Positions 7,036 to 19,774 of a stretch of 64,000 nucleotides of DNA are shown in pieces. Below the pieces are notes generated by a model. The model saw only the letters and a program-made list of their open reading frames with translations. It had not been told where the DNA came from and searched no databases. This stretch comes from Tenacibaculum sp. 190130A14a (lineage in GTDB: Bacteria; Bacteroidota; Bacteroidia; Flavobacteriales; Flavobacteriaceae), in assembly GCF_964048965.1 (NCBI RefSeq), contig NZ_OZ040189.1, positions 434,001 through 498,000 of the forward strand, written 5' to 3'. A program made the translations under genes and the position numbers. Every line of letters begins with the position of its first letter. Position 1 is the first letter of the stretch.

Positions 7036-9855
7036 ATGTCAGGTAAAAAAAGGCTATTCTTATTAGATGCTTATGCATTAATTTTTAGAGGATATTATGC
7101 GTTTATTAAAAATCCAAGAATCAATTCTAAAGGAGTAGATACTTCTGCTATTTTGGGATTTACCAATTCTTTACTGGATGTTATCAAACGAGAAAAGCCT
7201 GATTATCTTGCAGTATGTTTTGATAAAGGGGGAAGTGTTGATCGTGTGGAAATGTTTGAGGCTTACAAAGCAAATAGACAAGAAACTCCAGAGGCAATCC
7301 GCGTGGCAGTACCATATATAGAGCAGATATTAGAAGCAATGAATATTCCTGCAATTGTAAAAGAAGGGTATGAGGCAGATGATATTATTGGAACATTAGC
7401 AAAAAAAGCAGAAAAGGAAGATTTAGAAACCTATATGGTTACCCCCGATAAAGATTATGCGCAGCTAGTTTCTGAGACTACTTTCATGTACCGTCCACCA
7501 CGAATGGGGAATGGTTATGAAAAATGGGGAGTAGAAGAGGTAAAAGAGAAGTTTGGAGTAGAAAGACCTGAACAAGTTATCGACTTTTTAGGAATGATGG
7601 GAGACTCTGTAGATAATATTCCTGGCTTACCAGGAGTAGGTGAAAAAACCGCTAAAAAGTTCTTAGCAGCTTATGGTTCTATGGAAGGTTTGTTTGAAAA
7701 CATTCATGAACTGAAAGGAAAGATGAAAGAGAAAGTTGAAGCCAATCAAGAATTAGGATTACTTTCAAAGAAATTAGCAACAATTATGTTGGATGTTCCT
7801 GTTGAGTTAGAGCTAGATAAACTAGTAATGGAGCAACCAAATATTGAAGCAACCAAAACAATTTTCACAGAACTAGAGTTTCGTAGGTTAACCGATAACT
7901 TATTAAAAACTTTTTCAGTAGCAACAGAAGAAACAACTGCAACACCAAAGAAAACAACAAGTGGAGTAAATAAAGAAGGACAGTTTGATTTGTTCGCAGC
8001 ACCCGGTGGAGGTAATGTAACAGAAGAAACTCAAATAAGTGGATTTAAAACTATTGAAAACACCCGTCATTTTTATCAATTAGTTGATACACCTGTATCA
8101 AGAAAATTACTCTTGACAAAGTTAATGCAGCAAACTTCTGTTTGTTTTGATACGGAAACAACAGGTTTGAAAGCTTTAGAAGTTGAGTTGATTGGAATTG
8201 CTTTTTCTTGGGAAGAAGGGAAGGGATATTATGTTGCCTTTCCAGAAAATCAAGAAGAAACTCAAGAGCTATTAGAAGAGTTTAGACCATTCTTTGAGAA
8301 CGAATCTATAGAAAAGATAGGACATAACTTAAAGTATGATATTAAGGTATTGTCAAATTACCATATGCCTGTAAAGGGTAAGTTATTTGATACAATGATT
8401 GCACATTATTTGATTAATCCAGATATGCGCCATAATATGGATGTACTTTCAGAAACCTATTTGAACTATCAACCTGTTTCGATTACTGAATTGATAGGTA
8501 AAAAGGGGAAAAATCAATTGTCTATGCGACAAGTTGAATTGCCTAAGCAAACAGAATATGCCGTTGAAGATGCCGATGTAACTTTGCAGTTAAAAGAGCA
8601 TTTTACAAAGGAATTATCAAGTGGGAATGTTACCGAATTATTCAATGATGTAGAAACACCATTGGTATCTGTATTGACAGCAATGGAAATTGAAGGAGTC
8701 AACTTAGATACAGAATTTTTAAAGTCTTTATCGAAAGAATTGACGGAAGATATAGCAAAACTTGAAAAGAATATTTATGAGCAGGCAGGTGAAGAATTCA
8801 ATATAGCATCACCAAAGCAATTAGGACCTGTCTTATTTGAAAAATTGAAACTGGTAGACAAACCTAAAAAGACGAAAACAGGACAGTATTCTACTGCAGA
8901 AGACGTATTGTCTAGTTTAAAAGAACATCAGATTGTTTCAGATATCTTAGAGTATCGTCAGTATAAAAAATTACAAAGTACGTATGTAGATGCTTTACCA
9001 AATGAAATAAATCCTAAAACGGGAAGAGTTCATACGGTATATGCACAAGCGGTGGCAGCTACAGGACGTTTAAGTTCGAATAATCCGAACTTACAAAACA
9101 TTCCAATTCGTACAAAAAGAGGACAGGAGGTGCGTAAAGCGTTTATTCCTAGAGATGAAAACCATGTGCTGTTAGCAGCAGATTATTCTCAAATAGAACT
9201 ACGTATTATTGCAGCGCTGAGTGAAGAAGAAAACATGATTAAAGCTTTCCAAGAAGGTGAAGATATTCATGCTTCTACCGCAGCAAAAGTATTTGATGTA
9301 GCTATCGATGAGGTAACTCGTGAACAACGTAGCAATGCAAAAACGGTAAACTTTGGAATTATCTATGGAGTGTCTGCTTTTGGATTAAGTAATCAAACAA
9401 ACTTAACAAGAAAAGAAGCTAAGGCCTTGATAGATGCCTACTATGAAACGTATCCGAAGTTAAAAGCTTATATGTCTAAGCAAGTAGATTTTGCTCGTGA
9501 CAATGGATATGTAGAAACCGTTTTAAATCGTCGTAGGTATCTGAAAGATATCAATTCTAGAAATGCTATTGTACGCGGAGCGGCTGAACGAAATGCTGTA
9601 AATGCCCCAATACAAGGTTCGGCAGCCGATATTATTAAATTGGCTATGATTAACATTCATAAACGATTTGAACAAGAGAATTTCAAATCTAAAATGTTAT
9701 TACAAGTGCATGATGAATTGGTATTTGATGCACATAAAGATGAGTTAGAGATTATAAAACCTATTATCAAAGAAGAAATGGAAGGCGCATTTAAAATGAG
9801 CGTTCCATTAGATGTTGAAATGGGAATTGGTCAAAACTGGTTAGAGGCGCATTAA
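7036..9855 (+). CDS. polA: DNA polymerase I
   Basis: A 939-residue family A polymerase with all three domains. The N-terminal 5'-3' exonuclease (FEN-like) covers about residues 1-300 (LLDAYALIFRGYYA at the start, GLPGVGEKTA near 198). The 3'-5' proofreading domain has its DEDD residues apparently intact: CFDTETTGL near 372, NLKYD near 436, and YAVEDAD near 514. The polymerase domain has motif A (DYSQIELR, about 715), motif B (RSNAKTVNFGIIYG, about 767) and motif C (QVHDELVF, about 892). It acts in Okazaki fragment processing and repair synthesis. It ends 3 bp before the convergent RiPP operon. Confidence 0.97.
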   Translation: MSGKKRLFLLDAYALIFRGYYAFIKNPRINSKGVDTSAILGFTNSLLDVIKREKPDYLAVCFDKGGSVDRVEMFEAYKANRQETPEAIRVAVPYIEQILEAMNIPAIVKEGYEADDIIGTLAKKAEKEDLETYMVTPDKDYAQLVSETTFMYRPPRMGNGYEKWGVEEVKEKFGVERPEQVIDFLGMMGDSVDNIPGLPGVGEKTAKKFLAAYGSMEGLFENIHELKGKMKEKVEANQELGLLSKKLATIMLDVPVELELDKLVMEQPNIEATKTIFTELEFRRLTDNLLKTFSVATEETTATPKKTTSGVNKEGQFDLFAAPGGGNVTEETQISGFKTIENTRHFYQLVDTPVSRKLLLTKLMQQTSVCFDTETTGLKALEVELIGIAFSWEEGKGYYVAFPENQEETQELLEEFRPFFENESIEKIGHNLKYDIKVLSNYHMPVKGKLFDTMIAHYLINPDMRHNMDVLSETYLNYQPVSITELIGKKGKNQLSMRQVELPKQTEYAVEDADVTLQLKEHFTKELSSGNVTELFNDVETPLVSVLTAMEIEGVNLDTEFLKSLSKELTEDIAKLEKNIYEQAGEEFNIASPKQLGPVLFEKLKLVDKPKKTKTGQYSTAEDVLSSLKEHQIVSDILEYRQYKKLQSTYVDALPNEINPKTGRVHTVYAQAVAATGRLSSNNPNLQNIPIRTKRGQEVRKAFIPRDENHVLLAADYSQIELRIIAALSEEENMIKAFQEGEDIHASTAAKVFDVAIDEVTREQRSNAKTVNFGIIYGVSAFGLSNQTNLTRKEAKALIDAYYETYPKLKAYMSKQVDFARDNGYVETVLNRRRYLKDINSRNAIVRGAAERNAVNAPIQGSAADIIKLAMINIHKRFEQENFKSKMLLQVHDELVFDAHKDELEIIKPIIKEEMEGAFKMSVPLDVEMGIGQNWLEAH

Positions 9856-9866
9856 TTTCTAATGCG
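9848..9866. terminator. Hairpin spanning the two convergent stop codons
   Basis: A 7-bp perfect stem (9848-9854 with 9860-9866, loop ATTTC) overlaps the stop codon region of polA and the end of the last RiPP-operon gene. It lacks a strong T tract on either side, so it is only a candidate bidirectional terminator. Confidence 0.35.
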
Positions 9867-10743
9867 TAAAGTTTCCAAAATAAACCATATTAATATCCAA
9901 TTCTTTATTTCCAAGTGTTGAACCATCATGAAAGCAGTTGTCTGTTGGTGCGATGTAATATTGATATGGTTCTTGTTTTATTTTTACAACAGGATAATCA
10001 GGGAAATATTTAAAAAATGTTTCTGCAACATTGTATACAGTCACTTTAGTAATATCTGTTTTTTTCTTTAACATGTTATACACTTGAATCATAGAAAGAT
10101 TCATGTATAAAAAATGACGTGTTTCAGTTCCTATGTTGATACAAATTCTATTACCAAACTTGTGTGTTGTGTGCAGTGTCATAAACTGAGTTCCATCATT
10201 GTGAAGCCCCATATATTTCTTTTCTTCAACAGTAAAGTTATCTGGTAACCTGGTAATATCACATGCCACCATTTCTACATTTGGTAAATTGGTAGTAATG
10301 CAATGTAAATGAAAGGGTTTGCTGTTGGCAATCGTTGCTAGAAAGTTGTTGAGTTCGATATTCAAAGCCATGGTTAATTCTTGGTCTTTTGCGAAAGAAG
10401 CCATTACATCTTCTCTGTTTTTACAAGAACTAAAGTCAATTTTTGTAAAAAGATCTTTTACTTTTTGTGGTAATTCACCGAGGTAAATATGATTGTGGTC
10501 TTTTAACTCCGTATTTGGATTTAGAATTCTTTTTTCATCATTATTTAATGCTTTCCAGTCTCTTTTTGGAATATAAGCTTCATCAATATATAGAGGCAAA
10601 AAAGAATAGTGTTCATAGCTTACTTCACTTCCTTTATGTTGAGAATGATGTATTACCCCAGAGTTAATGTGCATCGTCTCAAAAGAATCTGACAGTCTAC
10701 TGTGAATGCCAATTCCTTTTTTCATTTGTATTAGATTTTCCAT
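9859..10743 (-). CDS. Putative Fe(II)-dependent oxygenase, RiPP tailoring paralog 4 (distal)
   Basis: Last gene of the RiPP operon, 294 residues from the chosen start. An upstream ATG at 10809 exists, but it would overlap the preceding gene by 38 bp. The ATG at 10743 has a leader resembling that of the neighbouring paralog and gives the same protein length as its siblings. Shared blocks: INSG with H32-H33; KRDW near 60-63; PNVEMVACD near 155-163; GLHNDGT (H181, D183); FGNRICINIG; and a C-terminal APTDNCFHDGST (H272). H-x-D followed about 90 residues later by His fits a 2-His-1-carboxylate iron site (inference). The function is probably modification of the peptide encoded at 14751-14963. Confidence 0.6.
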   Translation of the reverse strand: MENLIQMKKGIGIHSRLSDSFETMHINSGVIHHSQHKGSEVSYEHYSFLPLYIDEAYIPKRDWKALNNDEKRILNPNTELKDHNHIYLGELPQKVKDLFTKIDFSSCKNREDVMASFAKDQELTMALNIELNNFLATIANSKPFHLHCITTNLPNVEMVACDITRLPDNFTVEEKKYMGLHNDGTQFMTLHTTHKFGNRICINIGTETRHFLYMNLSMIQVYNMLKKKTDITKVTVYNVAETFFKYFPDYPVVKIKQEPYQYYIAPTDNCFHDGSTLGNKELDINMVYFGNFTH

Positions 10744-10771
10744 ATTATTTAAAAGTTTGGTTAGTTGATTT

Positions 10772-11653
10772 TTAATATTGAAAATTTCCAAAATAGACGA
10801 TACACACATCTAAATGTTTTGCTCCTAAAGTAGAACCATCATGAAAACAATTATCTGTAGGAGCAATATAGTACTGATAAGGTTTTTGTTCTATTCTAAT
10901 TACTGGGTAATCTGGAAAGTGTTTAAAGAAGTATTCTGGTATTGTAGAGATGTTTACTTCTTTCAATTCCTCTGGATTCATTTTCTCTTTCAGCATGGTA
11001 TGTGCTTCCGTTAAAGAAAGGTTTACAAATAAGAAATAACGAGAATCTTTTCCAAGATTAATACTTATTCTATTCCCAAATTCATGAGCGGTTTCTATAG
11101 TCATTAATTGGGTACCATCATTATGTATTCCTAAGAATTTCTTATCACCTTGCTTATAGCCTTCAGGCAACATTGTAGTATTGCAGGCAACCAATTCTAC
11201 ATTTGGATAGTTAACTCCAACACAATGAAAATCGAATTTTTTTTGATTGGAAATAGGCGCTAAAAAATTGTCTAGTAGCTGTGTTGCTTGAAGCACTAGA
11301 TCTGGATTGGTTCCTAGTTTTTCAAAAACCTGTTCACGATCTAAGCTTTCTTCTAATTGTAATTTTTGAAAACAGTTTTTTAAGTCTTCAGGAATTGTTC
11401 CTAGATATACTGTATTAAAGTCATTTCTACTTTCATCAGGTTCTAATAAATCTAATTCTTTTACAGTAAGTTGTCTCCAGTCTCTTTTATTTACATAAGC
11501 ATGGTCTACATATTCAGGAACAAATTGTTCATCTAAATAATTTACCAAGGCAGCTTCTTGATCTGTATGATGCAGTGTTCCAGAATTAATAGTTATAGCA
11601 TTAGCTCCCTCAGGAAGTGTGTTGTGAATCATTAATTGTCGTTTAATTTCCAT
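10772..11653 (-). CDS. Putative Fe(II)-dependent oxygenase, RiPP tailoring paralog 3
   Basis: A 293-residue paralog of the genes on both sides. The conserved blocks are INSGT with H28-H29, VNKRDWR (54-60), YPNVELVACN (149-158), GIHNDGT with H177 and D179, FGNRISINLG (192-201), and APTDNCFHDGST with H271. The pattern suggests a double-stranded beta-helix metal enzyme, but I see no arginine directly after the distal His as in many 2-oxoglutarate oxygenases, so the co-substrate is open. It starts 17 bp after paralog 2 ends and has no signal peptide, so it acts in the cytoplasm. Compared with paralog 4 the active-site blocks are nearly invariant, while the regions between them differ strongly. 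Confidence 0.6.
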   Translation of the reverse strand: MEIKRQLMIHNTLPEGANAITINSGTLHHTDQEAALVNYLDEQFVPEYVDHAYVNKRDWRQLTVKELDLLEPDESRNDFNTVYLGTIPEDLKNCFQKLQLEESLDREQVFEKLGTNPDLVLQATQLLDNFLAPISNQKKFDFHCVGVNYPNVELVACNTTMLPEGYKQGDKKFLGIHNDGTQLMTIETAHEFGNRISINLGKDSRYFLFVNLSLTEAHTMLKEKMNPEELKEVNISTIPEYFFKHFPDYPVIRIEQKPYQYYIAPTDNCFHDGSTLGAKHLDVCIVYFGNFQY

Positions 11654-11670
11654 AGTGCTGTTTTTTAAGT

Positions 11671-12555
11671 TTAGTATTGAAACTTTCCAAAATAGATCAT
11701 TATTACATCTAAATTCTCCATTCCGTAGGTAGAGCCATCATGAAAACAATGATCGGTAGGAGCAATGTAATATTGATATGGTTTTTGAGGGATTTTGATT
11801 ACAGGATAATCGGGAAAATGCTTAAAGAATAGTTTAGCAATGTTAGCTAAGTTAATTGAATCTCTCGGAATGTTTTTTTCTTTTTTTAGCATGTTATATG
11901 CTTGTGTTAGAGAAAGGTTTACATATAAGAAATAGCGCGTTTCTGCTCCAAGGTTTATAGTGAATCGATTTCCGGATTTATATGACCCATGAATAGAGGT
12001 TGGTTCAGCTCCATCGTTATGAATTCCCATATACTTTTTGTCTTCTTCTGTGAATCCTTCAGGAAGCACTGTGGTATCGCAAGCAACCATGTCTACATTT
12101 GGAAGATTAGCTCCAACAAAATGAAAATGAAAAGGGAGGTCGTTTGCAAAATCGGTCAAATACGATTGCATGTAGTTACTTAACTTCAAAGTAAGCTCTT
12201 TTTGATGTGTCATTTTTAAAACCACATCATCAGGGTGTACAGATTCTTGGAATTTAAGCTCCTGGAAAATTGTTTTTAAGTTCTCGGGGATGTCTCCAAT
12301 ATATATGGTGTTGTAATAATTTCTAGAATGATTTGGTTTTGATTTTATAGTAGTAATTTCTTCAAGAGATAGTTTTCTCCAATCTCTTTTTACTACATAT
12401 GCGTCATTTTCATACTTAGGAACAAAGTTCCAATCTAGGTAGTTTACACGACTTTTTTCCTGATTAGTATGGTGAGTTGTTCCAGAATTGATTCTGATAT
12501 CATCGTATATTGCTTCTGTAGAGCTGTGCAATTGTATTCCGTTAATAATTTTCAT
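11671..12555 (-). CDS. Putative Fe(II)-dependent oxygenase, RiPP tailoring paralog 2
   Basis: A 294-residue member of the four-gene paralog set. It contains INSGT with H28-H29, VVKRDWR (54-60), NLPNVDMVACD (150-160), GIHNDGA with H179 and D181, SGNRFTINLG (194-203), HFPDYPVIKI (246-255) and APTDHCFHDGST with H272. It starts 3 bp downstream of paralog 1, so translation is probably coupled. The H-x-D...H spacing suggests an iron-dependent hydroxylase or oxidase; this is inference, because I cannot assign a named family. All conserved residues are present, so the copy looks active. No secretion signal, so a cytoplasmic role before export of the peptide is likely. Confidence 0.6.
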   Translation of the reverse strand: MKIINGIQLHSSTEAIYDDIRINSGTTHHTNQEKSRVNYLDWNFVPKYENDAYVVKRDWRKLSLEEITTIKSKPNHSRNYYNTIYIGDIPENLKTIFQELKFQESVHPDDVVLKMTHQKELTLKLSNYMQSYLTDFANDLPFHFHFVGANLPNVDMVACDTTVLPEGFTEEDKKYMGIHNDGAEPTSIHGSYKSGNRFTINLGAETRYFLYVNLSLTQAYNMLKKEKNIPRDSINLANIAKLFFKHFPDYPVIKIPQKPYQYYIAPTDHCFHDGSTYGMENLDVIMIYFGKFQY

Positions 12556-12558
12556 ATG

Positions 12559-13413
12559 CTATACTTTTGATAATTGTGGAAGTTGATCAAATAACCCTGT
12601 ATATACAATAGTCATGTCAATTTCTTTGTTTCCGTATGTCGAAGCATCATGGAAAAAATTATCTGTTGGAGCTACGTAAAACTGATAAGGTTTTATTTCC
12701 ATTTTAATTACTGGGTAGTCCGGGAAATATTTAAAGAAATATTGAGTGATGTTGTTAGGGGATAATTCCGTTTTTTTAACATCAATTTTTTGACTTAATA
12801 AGTTGTATGCTTGAATTAAGGTAAGGTTGGTAAATAGTAAGGTTCGCGATTCATTACTGAGGTTTATAGATATTCTATTGCCAGATTTATACGCGGTATG
12901 TACCTTAAAAGGTCTACTTTGATCTATGTGTAAACCGATATAAATAAAGGCATCATCAATATAGTGGCATGTAATGGTTTCTCTATTTGGCATTGCTCGC
13001 GTAATGCGATGAAATTTGTAATCTTTGGTTGAAGAAGAGTTTTCTAAGAAGAAATGGAGCTCTTCATTTATTTTTTTAACAAGTTCCTTGTTCTTTTCAA
13101 AAGCAGGATATACTTCATCTGGATGCTTACAGTTTTCTAAACCAAGAGATGTAAATAGCTTTTTTAAATTGTGAGGTATTTCACCAATGTATAGGCTTTT
13201 ACTGTAATTAGAAAATTGTGTGGTGTTATTTACCAACAGTTTTGTTTCTTCTTTTGAAAGAGATCTCCAATCGTGTTTTGGAATATAAGAATTAGCATCA
13301 TATTGAATTCCGTTACGAGTCTCTGCTGTATGCACCCCAGAGCTATTTACTTGTAATTGGTTTTGAATATTAGGTATGCCTCCGAAAATATCTATGCCTT
13401 TTACTAACTTCAT
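12559..13413 (-). CDS. Putative Fe(II)-dependent oxygenase, RiPP tailoring paralog 1 (divergent)
   Basis: A 284-residue paralog placed directly after the radical SAM gene. Its ATG overlaps that gene's TGA in an ATGA junction (13410-13413), so the two are translationally coupled. It keeps the core blocks: LHID (H162, D164), SGNRISINL (177-185), PDYPVIKM and FHDAST (H255). It differs from its three siblings at several otherwise constant spots. The N-terminal INSGT-HH block is VNSSGVHT with only one His; HNDG is HIDQ; HDGST is HDAST; and KRDW is KHDW. It also has a short C-terminal tail. This suggests a different target residue or a different reaction. Confidence 0.6.
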   Translation of the reverse strand: MKLVKGIDIFGGIPNIQNQLQVNSSGVHTAETRNGIQYDANSYIPKHDWRSLSKEETKLLVNNTTQFSNYSKSLYIGEIPHNLKKLFTSLGLENCKHPDEVYPAFEKNKELVKKINEELHFFLENSSSTKDYKFHRITRAMPNRETITCHYIDDAFIYIGLHIDQSRPFKVHTAYKSGNRISINLSNESRTLLFTNLTLIQAYNLLSQKIDVKKTELSPNNITQYFFKYFPDYPVIKMEIKPYQFYVAPTDNFFHDASTYGNKEIDMTIVYTGLFDQLPQLSKV

Positions 13414-14669
13414 ACCTCCACTTCTTTTTTAAATGAGTATAATTTTTTCTGTACTTCGTTATTTATTTTTAAGACATTACTGGTGTTGAAATCACTGATA
13501 ATGTTTTCATAAGTCAAGGTTTCAATATTTAACTGATCCAGAGTTTCTTGAGGTAGCGAGTCTATAATATCGTTTTGAATAAAAGAAATCAATCGAACCA
13601 TATCTTTACAATACATAGTTGGATTATTAAAGCCATTTTCAAAAGAATATCGATGTCCTAAAAACCCTCCACCACAAATATCATATACAGGACAATTCAG
13701 GCATTGTTCACATACGTTATCATGGGCTTTATAATAAATTTGAAAAGTTTCATTTTCAAATAAATCTTCAATGGTATTTGTATGAATGTTAATTTCATTT
13801 CTAGTAATGCCTTCAAAACAAGCTCTTAAAGAATCTACAACTTCAATGCTACCATCGGTTTCTAATACGATAACACCATTGGTTTGTTTTCCTATGAGTT
13901 GATTTCCTATGCCTTCAACTCCCACAACCATTTTCACAAGGGATTCGAAGAAATAAATTCCTGGTCGGTCCTTATCATCCTTCCATATTTTATATAATTC
14001 TATGAACCAATCAGCGTATGGAGTATAGTTGATGTCGTTTGCTTTTTCTGTATTGAGCCCTAACGGAGCTTGGTCATAATGACCATCTGGGAGTAATAGG
14101 TTTACTCTTTCCACTCCTAAATTTTTAACCTCATGGTAAAGTTCCTGTACAGGAATGTTAATATTAACTACTAACAGAAGTCCCATAAGGTTGTAATTTT
14201 TTCCGAGTTCTATGGCTTTAGCTACTTTAGTGTAAGAGCCTTTTCCATTATGAAAAACTCGATATTCATCATGATATTTTTTAGGTCCGTCAATACTAAT
14301 ACCCACAGAAATATCATTTTTTTGTAATAAAGTATACCATTTTTCATCTAGGGTTACTCCGTTTGTTTGTACTGTGAAATTGAATTCTAAATTGGGAGCT
14401 GTATTTTTAAAAATGGAAACACAACTTTCAAAATAATCAGGTTTTAAAAGGAGGGGTTCTCCTCCATGAAACACAATTTGAACGTATTTAATATCTGCCT
14501 TTTCACAATAGTTTTTTAGCTTTTCTGCAAACTCAGTTATCGTGTCTAAAGACATAAATTTTGGTTGATTTAAATACGTTGAATCACCCATATTGTACAT
14601 GTAGCAGTAGGAGCAATTTAAGTTGCATCTACTGGCAATTTTTAAAACAAAAGAAGATACTTTATACAT
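13410..14669 (-). CDS. Radical SAM/SPASM peptide maturase (FxsB/cyclophane-forming-like)
   Basis: A 419-residue radical SAM enzyme. The cluster-binding motif CNLNCSYC has C15, C19 and C22. SAM-binding HGGEP lies at 68-72 and the TNG motif near 127. The C-terminal part is a SPASM domain with a Cys-rich run (CEQCLNCPVYDICGGG, about 318-333) and a later Cys, for auxiliary Fe-S clusters. The opening FVLKIASRCNLNCSYCYMYN closely resembles the FxsB-type maturases that join aromatic side chains to a residue two positions on. The likely substrate is the 70-residue product of the gene just upstream (14751-14963). The stop codon overlaps the next gene's start. Very confident as a RiPP-type rSAM/SPASM enzyme; the subfamily is less certain. 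Confidence 0.88.
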   Translation of the reverse strand: MYKVSSFVLKIASRCNLNCSYCYMYNMGDSTYLNQPKFMSLDTITEFAEKLKNYCEKADIKYVQIVFHGGEPLLLKPDYFESCVSIFKNTAPNLEFNFTVQTNGVTLDEKWYTLLQKNDISVGISIDGPKKYHDEYRVFHNGKGSYTKVAKAIELGKNYNLMGLLLVVNINIPVQELYHEVKNLGVERVNLLLPDGHYDQAPLGLNTEKANDINYTPYADWFIELYKIWKDDKDRPGIYFFESLVKMVVGVEGIGNQLIGKQTNGVIVLETDGSIEVVDSLRACFEGITRNEINIHTNTIEDLFENETFQIYYKAHDNVCEQCLNCPVYDICGGGFLGHRYSFENGFNNPTMYCKDMVRLISFIQNDIIDSLPQETLDQLNIETLTYENIISDFNTSNVLKINNEVQKKLYSFKKEVEV

Positions 14670-14685
14670 AGATTTAGTTTTTGTT

Positions 14686-14726
14686 AGGAAAACTAGATAA
14701 CCTTTGTAAAAAAGATTATCTAGTGA
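14686..14726 (-). terminator. Attenuator-like hairpin between precursor and maturase genes
   Basis: A perfect 9-bp inverted repeat (14694-14702 with 14718-14726, 15-base loop) lies between the precursor stop and the maturase start, followed on the minus strand by TTTTCC. The T tract is short, so partial read-through is expected. Such a site would keep precursor mRNA in excess over enzyme mRNA. Function inferred. Confidence 0.45.
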
Positions 14727-14732
14727 ACATTT

Positions 14733-14757
14733 TAATATTAACTCATAATATTAAAGT
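14733..14757 (-). promoter_or_regulatory. AT-only hairpin over the precursor stop codon
   Basis: TTTAATATTA (14733-14742) and TAATATTAAA (14748-14757) form a perfect 10-bp stem with a 5-base loop, covering the last codon and stop of the precursor gene. With only A-T pairs it is weak alone. Together with the next hairpin (14694-14726) it could protect the 3' end of a short precursor mRNA. Confidence 0.35.
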
Positions 14758-14963
14758 GCTGCTTGTAAGAAAGTATCATGCTTGTCGTAAGCAGAAACTC
14801 TTTCATTTTGTAGGCTGATTGCAACTACAGCACACGATCCTGGACCTCTTTTACCAAAGATGGCTTTGTAAAGGTCTAACTTGTCGTCATTAAAATCTTG
14901 TAAAGTTTTAGTTAAAACTTCTTTTTCCTTCAAATTTGAAGCGATTTTTGATTTTTTTTCCAT
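14751..14963 (-). CDS. Probable RiPP precursor peptide
   Basis: A 70-residue peptide upstream of the maturase. Residues 1-38 are charged and helix-prone (many Lys, Glu, Asp), as in a leader. A GKRGPGS stretch (37-43) is a natural leader/core boundary. The remaining part has one Cys (C44), a small-hydrophobic segment AVVAIS, and a C-terminus with three back-to-back aromatic-X-X triplets: YDK (59-61), HDT (62-64) and FLQ (65-67), then AAL. Aromatic-X-X is the motif crosslinked by cyclophane-forming radical SAM/SPASM enzymes. No signal peptide. Size, position and composition make the precursor call strong; the exact modification is inference. Confidence 0.8.
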   Translation of the reverse strand: MEKKSKIASNLKEKEVLTKTLQDFNDDKLDLYKAIFGKRGPGSCAVVAISLQNERVSAYDKHDTFLQAAL

Positions 14964-14993
14964 GGTTGAAAAAATTTAAAAGTTATAAAATAA

Positions 14994-15015
14994 TGCCATC
15001 AGTTAGGACATGGCA
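14994..15015 (-). promoter_or_regulatory. Small inverted repeat between receptor and precursor genes
   Basis: TGCCAT (14994-14999) and ATGGCA (15010-15015) form a 6-bp stem in the 96-bp gap between the receptor stop and the precursor start. It could be a processing or pausing site. I see no convincing -33/-7 promoter in the gap. Confidence 0.25.
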
Positions 15016-15059
15016 ATTGCCCTTCATTTTGGTGTAAATGAAACTCTTTTATATGTTTG

Positions 15060-17477
15060 TTATAGTCGCCTTTGAATATCACTATTTCCTGTACTTCTAT
15101 AACGTTGGTTTTTTACTGTTGTCTTTCCAAATGCATAGCGTATTGCAAGAGCTACACTTTGAGTGTCATGATAATTAGTGTCATTTATTTTGATGCCACC
15201 TACATTGATATTGTATCGGTCTTTGTTACTTCTAAAAATGTCTCTAGCTGATAATGAGATATTAAAGTTTCCTATGTTTTTTCTGAGTGCTAGCTCTGTT
15301 TCTAAACGATTTCCAATCTCTGTATTTACAATGGTAACCGGAAAGGTGTTTTTTGTATAAATAGTTAAAGAGAGTCCTTTCTCTTTAGAAATCATTATCA
15401 TTTGATTCAATGCCAAATTGAATAAAAGTGTTTTACTATTGATAGATACGTTGTTGTTTGCGTAGCTTCCCGTTGTTTGAATATGTCCAAGAAGAGAAGA
15501 AGAGTTAATTCGCCACCAAGGTTTTACTCTTGCAGAGAGTGCAGTACTTACGAAATAGGCATATTTGTTTCCGTAATTTGTTTTTCTATTAACAATAATG
15601 TCTTCTTCTGAATTAAACGGAAGCGCATAAAATTCATCAAGAGTTTGGCTAGCTCCAATTTGGGAAGTAAGTCTTACTTTACCAATACTTCTAGTATAGC
15701 TAAGTTCTTGACGATAATATCTTGAAGGATTTAAAAATGGGTTTCCTTCAAAATAAGTTTTATCGGTTGTATATTCTCTAAAAGGGTTTACATCCCAAAA
15801 ACTCGGACGTGTAATTCTGCTTGAAATTGATAATACGTAGCTGTTCTTTTTGTTTGGAGCAAATTTTAAAAACGCCGTTGGGAAGAAGTTTACATAATTT
15901 CTATCTACTACTTGATTGTTTTCAAGATATCCTTTAGCAACAGTGTTTTCTATTCTACTACCTATTTGATAAGACCAAGTCTTATTAATTTTGTGATTTA
16001 TGAGCGCGTAAAAAGCATGGATATTTTCATCATATTGAAATAAATTACTTCTCTGTAGGTCATTTTCCCAACCTAATAAATCGGCCGTTCTGTTTTCAAA
16101 TTTCAAATCGTTATGATTTTCAGAAAAAGAAAATTTTACTCCTGTTTCGAAAGTGAGTTTTTTATTGATAGGAAGTGTAAAATCTATTTTTATGGTTTTA
16201 TTCGTTACTTTTTGAAGTGTTGTATTTCGAAACCAATCTCTGGTATATAAAACTGTAGCAGGAGTAACATTTGAAAGTAAGTTAGTCTTACTTACACTGA
16301 AATTGTCTGAAGTAAATTTTAGATAGTCTGCATCAACAGATAGGCGTTCTCCATTCTTGCCTAATTTTCCTACATAATTCAGATTGACGGAATAATTATG
16401 ATTTTTCTGAGTATCGTCATTTGTGGTAATTGCTAAAGAATCGGTTGCTATATAAGTATCTAAACTATGAGCATTTCTATCTTGCTCTTCATCAGATCCT
16501 GAATACTCAAGAAACACACCCAGAATATGATTTTTGTTAATATTATAATCTATTCCAATGTTTGTTCCAGAGTACAAAGTTTTCATACTGTTTTCTCTAT
16601 CAATAAACCTGGTTTGAATACTAGAAGGGTCTAGATGATGGTAGAAAATATCTTTTTCGAAAGAAGTGTTTCGTTCTCTATTGCTTACATAGGAAGTAGA
16701 GTAGAGGTTCCAATTAGATTTTCTGTAATTTAAATATACACTTCCTGCTTCAGAAAACACCCTAGTTTTACGAGCACTGAGACTGGCATTTCCAAGAAGC
16801 CCTTCTTCTTTGTTTTTCTTTGTAATAATATTTAATATTCCCGCTCCTCCTTCTGCTTCAAATCTACTAGAGGGTGTTGTAATAACTTCTATGGCTTCTA
16901 AATTGTCTGCAGGAAGACTCTTTAAATAGTTCATTAAAGCAACTCCAGAAAGTCTTTTTTTTCTGTTGTTTATATATACAATAACTCCCTGTGTTCCTGC
17001 AATTTCTATATTACCTCCTTCAGAAGTAGAAACAAATGGGGTTCTGTTAATTGTTTCCCATACGCTACTTCCTATTATTAAATCAGAATTAGCAATGTTA
17101 AAACGAAGTCTGTCTGTTTTTCTTTCAATAATACTTTTGTTCGCATTGATTTCAACTGTTGCTAATTTGGTGTTCTCTTTAAATTGAAAGTTGAAAGTTT
17201 TATTGCTAGATAGCTTTATAGAAACAATTGAATCATTAAAAGCTACATGATAAAAACTTAATGAGTAGTTGCCTTTTTTTAGACGATCTATTTTATAGTG
17301 ACCTAAACTATCGGTTAATAGGTTTTTTATTAAAAGACTATCTTTTTTAAGACTTATAAATACGTCGGAAAGTGGATTGTTATATGTATCGGTAACCTTT
17401 CCTTTTAAGGTGTATTGAGCAAAGGCTGTTTCACAAAAAAGAACGATTAAAATAAAAGCAAAGATTACTCTTTTCAT
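15060..17477 (-). CDS. Outer-membrane beta-barrel (TonB-receptor-like) protein of the RiPP operon
   Basis: An 805-residue protein with a signal peptide (MKRVIFAFILIVLFCETAFAQ); I chose that Met rather than the ORF's earlier Met 57 codons upstream, which gives no signal peptide. After it comes a carboxypeptidase-regulatory-like domain (about 22-105), a plug-like domain (VYINNRKKR and IEVITTPSSRFEAEGGAG-type residues near 175-215) and a long barrel typical of the Bacteroidota outer-membrane beta-barrel family (PF14905-like). It lies 96 bp upstream of the precursor on the same strand. It could export, import or act as the immunity/uptake partner for the modified peptide; which one cannot be told from sequence. 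Confidence 0.8.
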   Translation of the reverse strand: MKRVIFAFILIVLFCETAFAQYTLKGKVTDTYNNPLSDVFISLKKDSLLIKNLLTDSLGHYKIDRLKKGNYSLSFYHVAFNDSIVSIKLSSNKTFNFQFKENTKLATVEINANKSIIERKTDRLRFNIANSDLIIGSSVWETINRTPFVSTSEGGNIEIAGTQGVIVYINNRKKRLSGVALMNYLKSLPADNLEAIEVITTPSSRFEAEGGAGILNIITKKNKEEGLLGNASLSARKTRVFSEAGSVYLNYRKSNWNLYSTSYVSNRERNTSFEKDIFYHHLDPSSIQTRFIDRENSMKTLYSGTNIGIDYNINKNHILGVFLEYSGSDEEQDRNAHSLDTYIATDSLAITTNDDTQKNHNYSVNLNYVGKLGKNGERLSVDADYLKFTSDNFSVSKTNLLSNVTPATVLYTRDWFRNTTLQKVTNKTIKIDFTLPINKKLTFETGVKFSFSENHNDLKFENRTADLLGWENDLQRSNLFQYDENIHAFYALINHKINKTWSYQIGSRIENTVAKGYLENNQVVDRNYVNFFPTAFLKFAPNKKNSYVLSISSRITRPSFWDVNPFREYTTDKTYFEGNPFLNPSRYYRQELSYTRSIGKVRLTSQIGASQTLDEFYALPFNSEEDIIVNRKTNYGNKYAYFVSTALSARVKPWWRINSSSLLGHIQTTGSYANNNVSINSKTLLFNLALNQMIMISKEKGLSLTIYTKNTFPVTIVNTEIGNRLETELALRKNIGNFNISLSARDIFRSNKDRYNINVGGIKINDTNYHDTQSVALAIRYAFGKTTVKNQRYRSTGNSDIQRRL

Positions 17478-17796
17478 GCAATTTTTGATATCAAAATTTA
17501 AAACGATTAATACTGTTTTAGGTTTTGAATCCGACCAAAAGAAAATCTTGATTTTTACACTATTTACAATAAAAGATACATCAAGTGTTTTACTTGTGTA
17601 GTGTATTGTATGATAGTATAGTGAAAAGCATTTTTTTGGGGGACTCAAACAAAAAAATAATTTACTATAACTTATTCTTTTCGGTACTAACTTACAATAA
17701 AATTACTATACTTCCTAAGAGATAAAAACAATTGATATAAATTTTACTCTTTAGTGTAGTCGAAAGAACTTCTTTACAAAGAAATGTATGAAAAAG
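17478..17796. other. Intergenic region upstream of the RiPP operon
   Basis: About 320 bp, very AT-rich, between the receptor start and the end of the uracil-DNA glycosylase-like gene. It must hold the operon promoter, but I find no clear TTG-N19-TAnnTTTG match on the minus strand. TTACTATA-like words occur twice (about 17662 and 17703). No ORF with coding character is seen. Confidence 0.4.
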
Positions 17797-18363
17797 TTAA
17801 GGTAGAATTTTTTGTACTTTGTTTTGTAATTCTGGAATAACTTCTTGTTCGAACCATGGGTTTTTTGTTAGCCAAAATCTATTTCTGGGAGAAGGATGCG
17901 GTAGTACAAAGTACTTGGGTAAGTATAAAGGGTAATTGTTAACGGTTTCAGTCAATGTTCTTTTGGCTCGGTCCTTTAAATAATAGTTTTGTGCATACAT
18001 TCCGATTAATAAAACCAGCTCAACATTTTTTAATTCGTTAAAAAGTTTGGCGTGCCATTCAGGAGCACATTCTTTTCTAGGGGGTAAATCACCACTCTTT
18101 CCTTTTCCTGGATAGCAAAACCCCATAGGGATAATTCCAAACAGTTCCGTGTTGTAAAATTGTTCGTTGGTTACATTAAGCCATTTTCTTAACTGTTTTC
18201 CGCTTGCATCATCCCATGGTATTCCCGAGGCATGAACTTTTGTTCCTGGCGCCTGACCAATAATGATAATTTTAGAATTAGGGCTTGCATATACAACAGG
18301 TCTAGGTGCTATGTGTTCTAAACAAATTGTACAGGAACGAATATCAGCGAGTAATTTTTCCAT
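17797..18363 (-). CDS. Uracil-DNA glycosylase family protein
   Basis: A 188-residue protein, counting from the Met at 18363; the longer ORF would begin inside the rseP terminator hairpin. Family signatures are GQAPGTKVHASGIPW (about 39-53, the GxAPG active-site loop with a following Trp-Asp), the PMGFCYPGKGKSGD loop in mid-protein, and HPSPRNRFW near the C-terminus, containing the catalytic-type His. An N-terminal CTIC pair (about 10-13) echoes the Fe-S cysteines of family 4/5 enzymes, but a full four-Cys set is not evident. It likely removes uracil or another damaged base from DNA. The exact UDG family is uncertain. Confidence 0.8.
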   Translation of the reverse strand: MEKLLADIRSCTICLEHIAPRPVVYASPNSKIIIIGQAPGTKVHASGIPWDDASGKQLRKWLNVTNEQFYNTELFGIIPMGFCYPGKGKSGDLPPRKECAPEWHAKLFNELKNVELVLLIGMYAQNYYLKDRAKRTLTETVNNYPLYLPKYFVLPHPSPRNRFWLTKNPWFEQEVIPELQNKVQKILP

Positions 18364-18373
18364 GGAATTAAAG

Positions 18374-18404
18374 TACAAAAAAAGCATCGCCTAAACGATG
18401 CTTT
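18374..18404 (-). terminator. rseP terminator
   Basis: AAAGCATCG (18381-18389) pairs with CGATGCTTT (18396-18404), loop CCTAAA, followed on the minus strand by seven T. It lies 24 bp after the rseP stop. The plus strand also has a T run, but no plus-strand gene ends here. Confidence 0.85.
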
Positions 18405-18427
18405 TTTTAAATGTATATAAACGATAC

Positions 18428-19774
18428 TTATTTAAATAGTCTAAATATATCATTACCATTAGCAAATAGTAATAGCGCCAATAATAACACAAATCCGGTA
18501 ACTTGTGCATATTCTAAAAACTTATCGCTAGGCTTTTTACCTGTAATCATTTCCCATAAAGTAAACATAACATGTCCACCATCTAAAGCAGGAATAGGTA
18601 ATAAGTTCATAAAACCTAACATTATTGATAAAAACGCCGTAATATTCCAGAAAGTTTCCCAGCTAAATTCTGAAGGGAAGATACTTCCAATAGAAATAAA
18701 TCCTCCAAGTCCTTTATAAGCACCAGTACTTGGATTAAAGATTTTTTTCATTTGTTTTATGTAGCTCGTCAAGGTAGTCCATGCTTTATTTGTACCAGCA
18801 GGAATCGCTTCTCCAAAAGAATATGATTTTTCTGCTAATTGGTAGTATCCTAATTTTTCCAAATCTTTTAATGATACAGCTCCCCAACGTACACCAAGAT
18901 TACCATGGTTTGATACTTTAGCAGGTATTTCTACATCTTGGTTTTGTCTTTTTAAAGTAAGTGTAACGTCTTGTCCCTTTAATGTTTGTAGCATAGGCTT
19001 GGCCTGATCGTAATAAGAGATTTGTTGTCCGTTAATTGCCACTACAATATCTTTTGGCTGTATGTTCGCGTTCGCGTTAATAGAGTCTTTTTCAACTGCC
19101 GCAATAATAAAAGGATATCTAGGTGTAATAAAAGCCCCAGCATCTTTACCTCTATCTACTAATTGAGAGATGAAATCATTAGGAATCTCTTTAGTAAGAG
19201 TTTCTCCGTTTCTTTCTATTGTGTAACTATTACCATTGATGAACTCTAAAGGTAATTCTCTAAATTTTTCAATTTTATTACCATCAATAGTTAGTATTTT
19301 ATCACCTGTTTGTAATCCTAAATCTTTTCCAAGTTGGTCTTGTACCCAAACTCCATCTTTTAAACTTTCGTTTGGTAAAAACTTTTCACCATAAGCCCAC
19401 ATTAAACAGATGTAGATTAAAATACCTAGCACGAAATTTACAAATACTCCACCTAACATAATAATTAAACGTTGCCATGCCGGTTTAGATCTAAATTCCC
19501 AAGGTTTAGGTTCTTCTTTCATTTGCTCAGTATCCATGCTTTCATCAATCATACCAGCAATTTTCACATATCCTCCTAGAGGAATCCATCCAATACCATA
19601 AACAGTTTCACCTATTTTCTTTTTGAATAAAGAAAACTTGTAGTCAAAGAATAAATAGAACTTTTCTACTTTGGTTTTAAAGAGCTTAGCGGGAATAAAA
19701 TGTCCTAATTCGTGTAGCACAATTAATAGCGATAAACTTAAGATGAATTGTGATGCTTTTATTAATATCTCCAT
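18428..19774 (-). CDS. rseP: RIP metalloprotease RseP (site-2 protease)
   Basis: A 448-residue inner-membrane zinc protease. The first membrane segment contains HELGH (21-25), the metal-binding and catalytic motif. Two PDZ domains follow (about 125-200 and 205-290; GDKILTIDGNKI and PKDIVVAINGQQI are their carboxylate-loop signatures). Near residue 400 is NLLPIPALDGGHV, giving the third zinc ligand. It cleaves transmembrane substrates such as anti-sigma factors after a first cut by a site-1 protease. It is transcribed alone, with a strong terminator just downstream. The length is usual for the family. An ECF sigma/anti-sigma-like pair occurs elsewhere in this window (43410-44250), but no link is shown. 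Confidence 0.95.
   Translation of the reverse strand: MEILIKASQFILSLSLLIVLHELGHFIPAKLFKTKVEKFYLFFDYKFSLFKKKIGETVYGIGWIPLGGYVKIAGMIDESMDTEQMKEEPKPWEFRSKPAWQRLIIMLGGVFVNFVLGILIYICLMWAYGEKFLPNESLKDGVWVQDQLGKDLGLQTGDKILTIDGNKIEKFRELPLEFINGNSYTIERNGETLTKEIPNDFISQLVDRGKDAGAFITPRYPFIIAAVEKDSINANANIQPKDIVVAINGQQISYYDQAKPMLQTLKGQDVTLTLKRQNQDVEIPAKVSNHGNLGVRWGAVSLKDLEKLGYYQLAEKSYSFGEAIPAGTNKAWTTLTSYIKQMKKIFNPSTGAYKGLGGFISIGSIFPSEFSWETFWNITAFLSIMLGFMNLLPIPALDGGHVMFTLWEMITGKKPSDKFLEYAQVTGFVLLLALLLFANGNDIFRLFK

Follow-up and report, generated by a model that had tools for sequence, protein, structure and literature searches.

A conserved operon of Tenacibaculum and its relatives, plausibly for a cyclophane peptide, joins a radical SAM maturase to up to four paralogous, putative 2-oxoglutarate oxygenases

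The DNA analysed here, called the window, is a stretch of 64,000 nucleotides from Tenacibaculum sp. 190130A14a (contig NZ_OZ040189.1, positions 434,001 to 498,000), whose genome is a single contig of 3.94 Mb. At window positions 9859-17477 it carries an operon which plausibly directs the formation of a ribosomally synthesized and post-translationally modified peptide (RiPP) of the triceptide type. In the reading favored here, at a probability of roughly 0.7, a radical S-adenosylmethionine (SAM) maturase would make two cyclophanes in a short peptide, and four oxygenases related to MicC would oxidize the core, with a separate residue or step for every one of them. An earlier note, drawn from the sequence alone, had placed seven genes on one strand, and all are found there, on the minus strand. 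In 5' to 3' order they encode an outer-membrane beta-barrel protein of 805 amino acids (15060-17477, the Met start lying within a longer open reading frame opened by TTG), a precursor peptide of 70 amino acids (14751-14963), a YhhB/FxsB-like radical SAM/SPASM peptide maturase of 419 amino acids (13410-14669), and four putative paralogous Fe(II)/2-oxoglutarate (2OG) oxygenases, ox1 (284 amino acids, 12559-13413), ox2 (294 amino acids, 11671-12555), ox3 (293 amino acids, 10772-11653) and ox4 (294 amino acids from the Met at 10743, 9859-10743). The junctions given in the note (96, 81, -4, 3, 17 and 28 bp) were reproduced from the gene coordinates; the longest reading frame of ox4 starts at 10809 and overlaps its neighbour by 38 bp, and it is the internal Met at 10743 which leaves the 28 bp gap.

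The operon lies far beyond chance, because the same gene order recurs at every one of the related loci. GTDB species genomes were scanned with an alignment of the four paralogs, and 24 related loci, the window not counted, were identified in seven genera (Tenacibaculum, Aquimarina, Kordia, Flavobacterium, Chitinophaga, Mucilaginibacter and Chryseobacterium). In all 24 a precursor homologue (E 4.1e-35 to 2.1e-8), comes directly before a full-length maturase homologue, and the oxygenases follow. The RiPP logic proposed for the operon, which was to fall if paralogs and maturases never co-occurred with a small peptide gene, is strongly supported: a short gene with leader and core stands beside the maturase and the paralogs at 24 of 24 loci, and the peptide belongs to a set of 118 database homologues, itself included. 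The genes of the maturase and ox1 overlap in 22 loci, by 4 bp in 20 of them, as in the window, and by 7 bp in two; the exceptions are F. omnivorum (locus L010, 0 bp) and locus L025 (+147 bp). Four oxygenases are present in nine loci, three in F. omnivorum and in the Mucilaginibacter locus L012, two in the 13 loci of Chryseobacterium. Two precursor copies reside in L012, flanking the barrel gene on both sides. Oxygenase genes of this family are rare, having been identified in 3 of 395 phylum-wide and 3 of 397 family-wide genomes, the genome of the window being counted in both, and all three carriers in the phylum draw have a YhhB-like radical SAM gene and a precursor next door.

The precursors share a leader and a set of fixed core residues. 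A profile built on 21 sequences retrieved the 118 proteins, and since profile searches favor conserved positions, the invariance of the anchors among them is to be read with this caveat. A loose pattern holds in 118 of 118, with a single Cys downstream of the leader, a single Tyr-x-x motif and, later, Phe-x-x (116) or Trp-x-x (2); the spacing between Cys and Tyr ranges from 11 to 22 residues. The corresponding window residues are Cys44 (14832-14834, minus strand), Tyr59-Asp-Lys (14781-14789, minus strand), the predicted first cyclophane, and Phe65-Leu-Gln (14763-14771, minus strand), the predicted second one. The aromatic-x-x core typical of triceptides, the products of three-residue cyclophane-forming enzymes (3-CyFE), is thus found in all 118, and the replacement of Phe by Trp in two precursors fits the aromatic-x-x rule. 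A strict pattern is followed by 107 sequences. In these, Tyr precedes Asp (84), Asn (21) or Ser (2) and then Lys (74), Arg (32) or Gln (1), the third residue being Lys or Arg in 106; Asp follows after 0 to 2 residues, and after 1 or 2 more comes Phe with Leu (105), Thr (1) or Val (1) and a third residue which is Arg (57), Lys (19), Gln (18), Leu (12) or Met (1). Nine of the 11 misfits lack the Asp, two have Trp. Fixed anchors separated by spacers of variable length are a behaviour fitting ring-forming residues, and the core motifs would fit two three-residue cyclophanes. The leader motif DLY..IF is followed by GG in 104 precursors, AG in 7 and GK in 4, and was not matched in 3. No NCBIfam model matched the window peptide, the precursor found no match in a plasmid collection, and the HaaA precursor model found none in the genome of the window.

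The maturase had been likened to FxsB and the cyclophane-forming group, which is right at the family level. The NCBIfam models YhhB (353.1 bits, cut-off 445) and FxsB (321.5 bits, cut-off 370) match over the full length, followed by XyeB (189 bits) and PapB (125 bits), and the models DynA and DarE also match with lower scores. By family, the enzyme is of the cyclophane type, and is not a curated YhhB. Its nearest solved relative is the radical SAM domain of ChlB (E 1.5e-60, residues 4-373). Of 25 maturase homologues, 24 have a CxxxCxxC motif in their first 40 residues and only 6 fit a crude SPASM pattern, hence the SPASM label rests on the family match. According to a review (PMC11002830), YhhB links the C-beta of Arg to C3 of Tyr and to C2 of His, and such a Tyr-to-Arg link fits the Y-D-K/R core motif. 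Maturases of this kind occur in other settings as well. A second YhhB-like maturase in the genome of the window (G000:C1:901794-902858; L059:8639-9868; 320 bits) has its own GG-containing peptide of 74 amino acids (L059:9949-10173) and no oxygenase on a stretch of 19 kb. Similarly, a YhhB-like maturase of genome G277 (L030:1339-4040, 354.7 bits), found without oxygenase or a precursor of the type described here, is accompanied by a relative of the barrel protein (E 6e-31).

None of the oxygenases is matched by a Pfam or NCBIfam model above cut-off. Their assignment, proposed earlier from an H-x-D...H pattern, is borne out by the invariance of these metal ligands in 72 of 72 oxygenases of the 25 loci, by homology to MicC and by the predicted fold. 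The structure model of ox2 (pLDDT 95.6) has the double-stranded beta-helix of Fe(II)/2OG dioxygenases, and the 50 matches in the Foldseek and VIA-align listings are without exception Fe/2OG enzymes. Residues R197 and R207 are likewise invariant in the 72 sequences. The HExxH motif was found in one of them, a Chitinophaga ox1, and in none of the window, which sets the family apart from the alpha-ketoglutarate (alpha-KG)-HExxH group to which ChlB belongs.

A maximum-likelihood tree built on all 72 oxygenases (supports given as paired values) unites the ox1 proteins of every locus in one clade (25 rows, 100/100). The eight four-copy loci of Flavobacteriaceae form an 8-row clade for each position (100/97 for ox1, 100/100 for ox2, ox3 and ox4), and the gene order of the Chitinophaga copies agrees with their placement in the groups of ox2 (92/89), ox3 (84/81) and ox4 (97/93). 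The ox2 of Mucilaginibacter sits on a long branch, and its placement is uncertain. The evidence for ox3 and ox4 comes from tree, identities and metal ligands, that for ox1 from the tree, and that for ox2 from structure model, fold comparison and tree. Each window oxygenase shares 57-77% identity with its positional counterpart in Tenacibaculum, Aquimarina and Kordia algicida, and 35-52% with the enzymes at other positions; within the window the paralogs are 38-52% identical. The four positions are, as judged from tree and identities, separately conserved, long-diverged paralogs and not copies. Eleven of the 25 loci, the window among them, have an enzyme of the ox4 clade, and in all 11 an Arg stands four positions ahead of the core Tyr; none of the other 14 has it. 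As 13 of the 14 ox4-free loci are from Chryseobacterium, F. omnivorum provides one independent contrast, and the putative link between this Arg and ox4 is kept as a lead only. In Kordia periserrulae (L025:6209-8001) the core is altered (YDKQIDPTFLL), the maturase gene is followed by a gap of 147 bp, and the ox1 and ox3 proteins lie on long branches, as if enzyme and substrate had changed together.

Systems already described provide precedents for the parts of the operon. As in the case of the triceptide enzymes XncB, OscB/GrrM, MscB, YxdB, HaaB and YhhB, a maturase of FxsB/YhhB type lies beside a short precursor with aromatic-x-x motifs; in contrast to them, the maturase scores below the cut-offs of YhhB and FxsB, the precursor lacks an NCBIfam match and carries a single invariant Cys, and the oxygenases belong to another family and come in 2 to 4 copies. 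The Yhh system (NF041707 YhhB, NF041706 YhhC) similarly unites, to judge from the names of the models, a maturase and a 2OG enzyme on a cyclophane peptide. Membership in it was rejected: the maturase reaches 353.1 bits against 445, and YhhC is not matched. The YhhC model (182 positions) had no match in the genome of the window, the control genomes being silent too, and did not hit any of the four oxygenases of the window (E up to 1). At E up to 10, a set made up of one window oxygenase and three from related loci gave no hit either. A triceptide paper of 2022 reportedly describes an alpha-KG hydroxylase acting on cyclophane peptides. MicC (PDB 9vkm), an alpha-KG-dependent non-heme iron oxygenase, is homologous to the oxygenases over profile positions 5-292 (E 4.9e-32), and shares their H-x-D and HDGST regions. 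ChlB, in which a radical SAM domain is fused to an alpha-KG-HExxH domain, resembles the operon through its maturase part and differs in that the oxygenases described here are separate H-x-D...H proteins. The text on ChlB (PMC12636437) reports cyclophane formation followed by cyclophane-dependent beta-hydroxylation of Asp and His, and cites a RiPP in which an alpha-KG dioxygenase crosslinks Cys and Tyr (Xia et al. 2025); the single invariant Cys and the Tyr of the precursors would suit such chemistry. The operon had been called probably new. This holds for the combination; the principle of a cyclophane-forming radical SAM enzyme working with an alpha-KG hydroxylase is known, as indicated by the same text and by the NCBIfam pair YhhB and YhhC. 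No paper was found whose title or abstract start describes the operon in a search which mostly did not reach subscription literature, where a description may be in print. Within what was searchable, the precursor family, the occurrence of this oxygenase family in such a setting, the presence of up to four paralogs and a sequence element located 5' of the peptide gene appear to be new.

Distant homologues of the oxygenases were detected on plasmids, for which gene tables are incomplete, in Nostoc and Methylocystis, and in Streptomyces with the MicC query only. The Nostoc gene, whose product is 27.6% identical to ox2, follows an annotated cyclophane-forming maturase (GrrM/OscB); the maturase gene is preceded by one for a peptide of 68 amino acids which ends in NWDNSFLQWNDSWGNGGNGH and contains W-D-N, F-L-Q and W-N-D. 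This neighbourhood lends support to F-L-Q as a ring motif and to the view that the oxygenases act on cyclophane peptides. The Methylocystis parvus homologue (L089:7815-8828) lies among genes for a TonB receptor and an iron ABC transporter. As far as the incomplete tables allow, no annotated maturase resides within 8 kb on either side of the Methylocystis and Streptomyces genes.

The chemical steps, with their site specificity, and the cleavage, export and role of the product, are what we infer from this set of genes. The maturase would join the Tyr ring to the beta-carbon of Lys in Y-D-K, and the Phe ring to the beta-carbon of Gln in F-L-Q. Once the core is cross-linked, the four oxygenases would oxidize it, with a separate residue or step assigned to each and beta-hydroxylation as the likeliest reaction; alternatively, one of the four may connect the invariant Cys with the Tyr, which is likewise invariant. 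Cleavage of the leader would take place at the conserved IFGG-type site or close to it, and the product would act at the outer membrane or beyond it. Cyclophanes made first, followed by several site-specific oxidations, are favored because of the precedents of the ChlB type and of Cys-Tyr crosslinking, as presented in PMC12636437. A number of observations weigh against the reading as a whole. The maturase lies under the cut-offs of both YhhB and FxsB, and six of the nine matches of the YhhB model above 300 bits in the phylum draw have no oxygenase, five residing in oxygenase-free genomes and one being the second copy in the genome of the window. Foldseek gave no E under 0.001 for the ox2 model, and the 72 oxygenases have no invariant Arg or Lys after the distal His, the usual place for 2OG binding. 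The deep ox2 and ox3 groups are moderately supported (92/89 and 84/81), and the window ox2 is 48% identical to the Chitinophaga ox2 and 51% to ox3, the window ox4 being 53% identical to the Chitinophaga ox3 and ox4 alike. The second motif reads F-L-L in 12 of 107 precursors, with a third residue poorly suited to a cyclophane of known type; the leader of the window reads GK, versus GG in 104 of 118; the Nostoc peptide has no Cys; and no C39 transporter was identified at the window locus.

The barrel protein matches OMP_b-brl_3 (Pfam, E 1.6e-77) and carries an N-terminal CarbopepD_reg_2, a carboxypeptidase-regulatory-like domain (E 9.7e-9). Its gene precedes the peptide gene in 10 of the 24 related loci, 11 of 25 with the window. 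The label of receptor used in the earlier note is one of its weaker points, as the protein is recognized as a Pfam barrel only, in 11 of 25 loci, and has a poor structure model. The latter, obtained from 11 sequences, has a mean pLDDT of 53.7, too poor for a fold search, and the protein may be a receptor or an exporter. Among solved structures the barrel profile matched NOMO2 only, the match lying in the N-terminal region. In a Pfam run on 20 chosen neighbour proteins, C39 peptidase-transporters turned out to be linked to 4 of the 24 loci, and a predicted aspartyl protease to 12 (Aquimarina and 11 Chryseobacterium loci). In these 11 (L015-L024, L028) the cassette sits directly behind a GH97 polysaccharide-utilisation locus, with SusD in 10, and the aspartyl protease comes after. 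An outer-membrane or secretion context recurs, and no transport partner is universal. C39 peptidase-domain genes are present elsewhere in the genome of the window, clustered at G000:C1:3138330-3165408 and 3697007-3704242, and the one at 3165034 adjoins a radical SAM match at 3166013, which suggests further RiPP clusters. A sigma-factor function was considered for neighbours of 188 amino acids and rejected, one of them being a UDG, two RibD_C proteins, and one without a match.

Upstream of the operon lies a UDG gene (Pfam, 17797-18387), downstream a convergent gene for 939 amino acids (7036-9855), which we take, from a reading of its sequence, to be DNA polymerase I. In Tenacibaculum sp. MAR_2009_124 (L005) the same operon has a UDG-family gene upstream and, downstream on the opposite strand, a gene for 942 amino acids; owing to these flanking genes, the two operons are probably at the same genomic site. 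The 7036-9855 protein was used to search 30 genomes of the genus, that of the window included, and about 1.5 kb around each homologue was inspected. An oxygenase was found beside it at the window's own locus only. In two congeners (L095 and L096) the UDG gene adjoins the homologue, about 670 bp apart, with no oxygenase between; the other 27 have neither UDG nor oxygenase within this distance. Since in L095 and L096 UDG sits directly beside the homologue, the stretch from the barrel gene to ox4 appears to have been gained or lost as a single unit, and the barrel gene is thereby tied to the remainder of the operon.

Between barrel and peptide genes, a conserved element of 28 nucleotides, GGGCNNTYGYCATGTCCTNACNGATGRC (14995-15022, minus strand), was identified in the window and in 13 of the 24 related loci, one or two differences being allowed in some copies. 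Three of the 13 loci lack the barrel gene, and the element was not found in the 11 GH97-linked Chryseobacterium loci. Directly 5' of it, an A+T-rich hairpin (15023-15042, minus strand) is predicted in 13 of 14 copies and is weak (-2.0 to -4.7 kcal/mol). The element is single-copy in the genome of the window at up to 3 mismatches, and absent from shuffled sequences. A covariance model of it had hits in two of the 395 genomes of the phylum draw; both carry the operon, and G095, the third carrier there, gave no match. Rfam, run on 9000-18500, gave no match at the element and two weak ones outside the operon. The possibility that the element is translated (MKGNCHVLTDG in the window) was rejected, as the length changes GAAGGGC/GAAAGGGC shift the frame and the bases stay conserved; the element is in frame with the precursor by chance in L005, L026 and L027. 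Folding of seven copies was not clearly better than that of shuffles (z -1.80 to +0.31). One stem pair is changed on both sides in 4 of 14 sequences. A structure at the RNA level is suggested at most, and a palindromic DNA operator is as possible; a putative pairing of GGGC with a loop GTCC is invariant. A promoter pattern of the Bacteroidetes type is no commoner in the window than in shuffles (12 occurrences, against 7.49 on average in shuffles, nine of 100 attaining 12).

Alternative readings bear on what the enzymes do. Paralogs sharing one reaction, with additional copies raising flux or covering different conditions, would account for a number which varies from 2 to 4 between loci and for the same metal site in all copies, yet the identities within positions (57-77%) exceed those between positions (35-52%) across three genera, and clades follow the gene order, which makes a dosage effect rather unlikely. 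The Cys could serve as ring donor for the radical SAM enzyme, and the product be a thioether peptide, similar to sactipeptides or ranthipeptides, in place of a cyclophane. The one core Cys invariant in 118 of 118 and the 125 bits of the ranthipeptide maturase PapB speak in its favor, but YhhB, FxsB and XyeB score higher (353, 321.5 and 189 bits), two aromatic-x-x motifs are invariant, and ChlB is the nearest solved relative, so this chemistry is held to be doubtful, a shade more so than dosage. That the small gene encodes a regulator or an accessory subunit and is no substrate at all is highly improbable in view of its leader/core pattern, of the variable spacing between invariant ring residues and of the family of the adjacent maturase. 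Beside the reading in which two cyclophanes are oxidized at separate sites, a Cys-Tyr bridge stays in play at lower probability because both residues are invariant. The product might be a polycyclic RiPP with two radical cyclophanes and, on the same Tyr, a bridge to Cys made by an oxygenase, with one residue for each remaining paralog and a peptide-specific structured element upstream; such a combined architecture is unlikely, though slightly less so than dosage. If true, the spacing between Cys and Tyr, which ranges from 11 to 22 residues, would amount to a tunable macrocycle.

As to function, an antibacterial product acting on the outer membrane of rivals, in the manner of darobactin and xenorceptide on BamA, with the barrel as receptor, exporter or self-protection, may be entertained tentatively, and is the least improbable of the alternatives considered. 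XyeB, DynA and DarE belong, with lower scores, to the maturase group, and the barrel gene occurs in 10 of 24 related loci; against this, it is missing from 14. Both xenorceptide and darobactin block BamA, as stated in PMC12971899. The product could alternatively bind metal through a hydroxylated Asp and the Cys, the barrel taking the complex back up. An Asp (or Asn) beside Tyr and an Asp before Phe are common, one Cys is available, and the Methylocystis oxygenase homologue resides in a group with a TonB receptor and an iron transporter; beta-hydroxy-Asp binds iron in siderophores. However, no metal regulation was seen, 9 of 118 precursors lack an Asp before the aromatic residue, and 11 Chryseobacterium loci lie behind a polysaccharide locus instead. 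Metal binding is thus about as unlikely as dosage.

On the whole, the operon is, on the evidence of its sequences, a genuine and conserved variant of cyclophane RiPPs, built on the already known principle of a cyclophane maturase associated with an alpha-KG enzyme. The oxygenase family, which bears no Pfam or NCBIfam name, is marked for enzyme discovery. The precursor family, with its invariant Cys and Tyr, could carry a bridge besides the cyclophanes. Homologous cores accompanied by 2, 3 or 4 homologous oxygenases constitute a natural series, which may reveal how 2-oxoglutarate oxygenases divide sites on one peptide.

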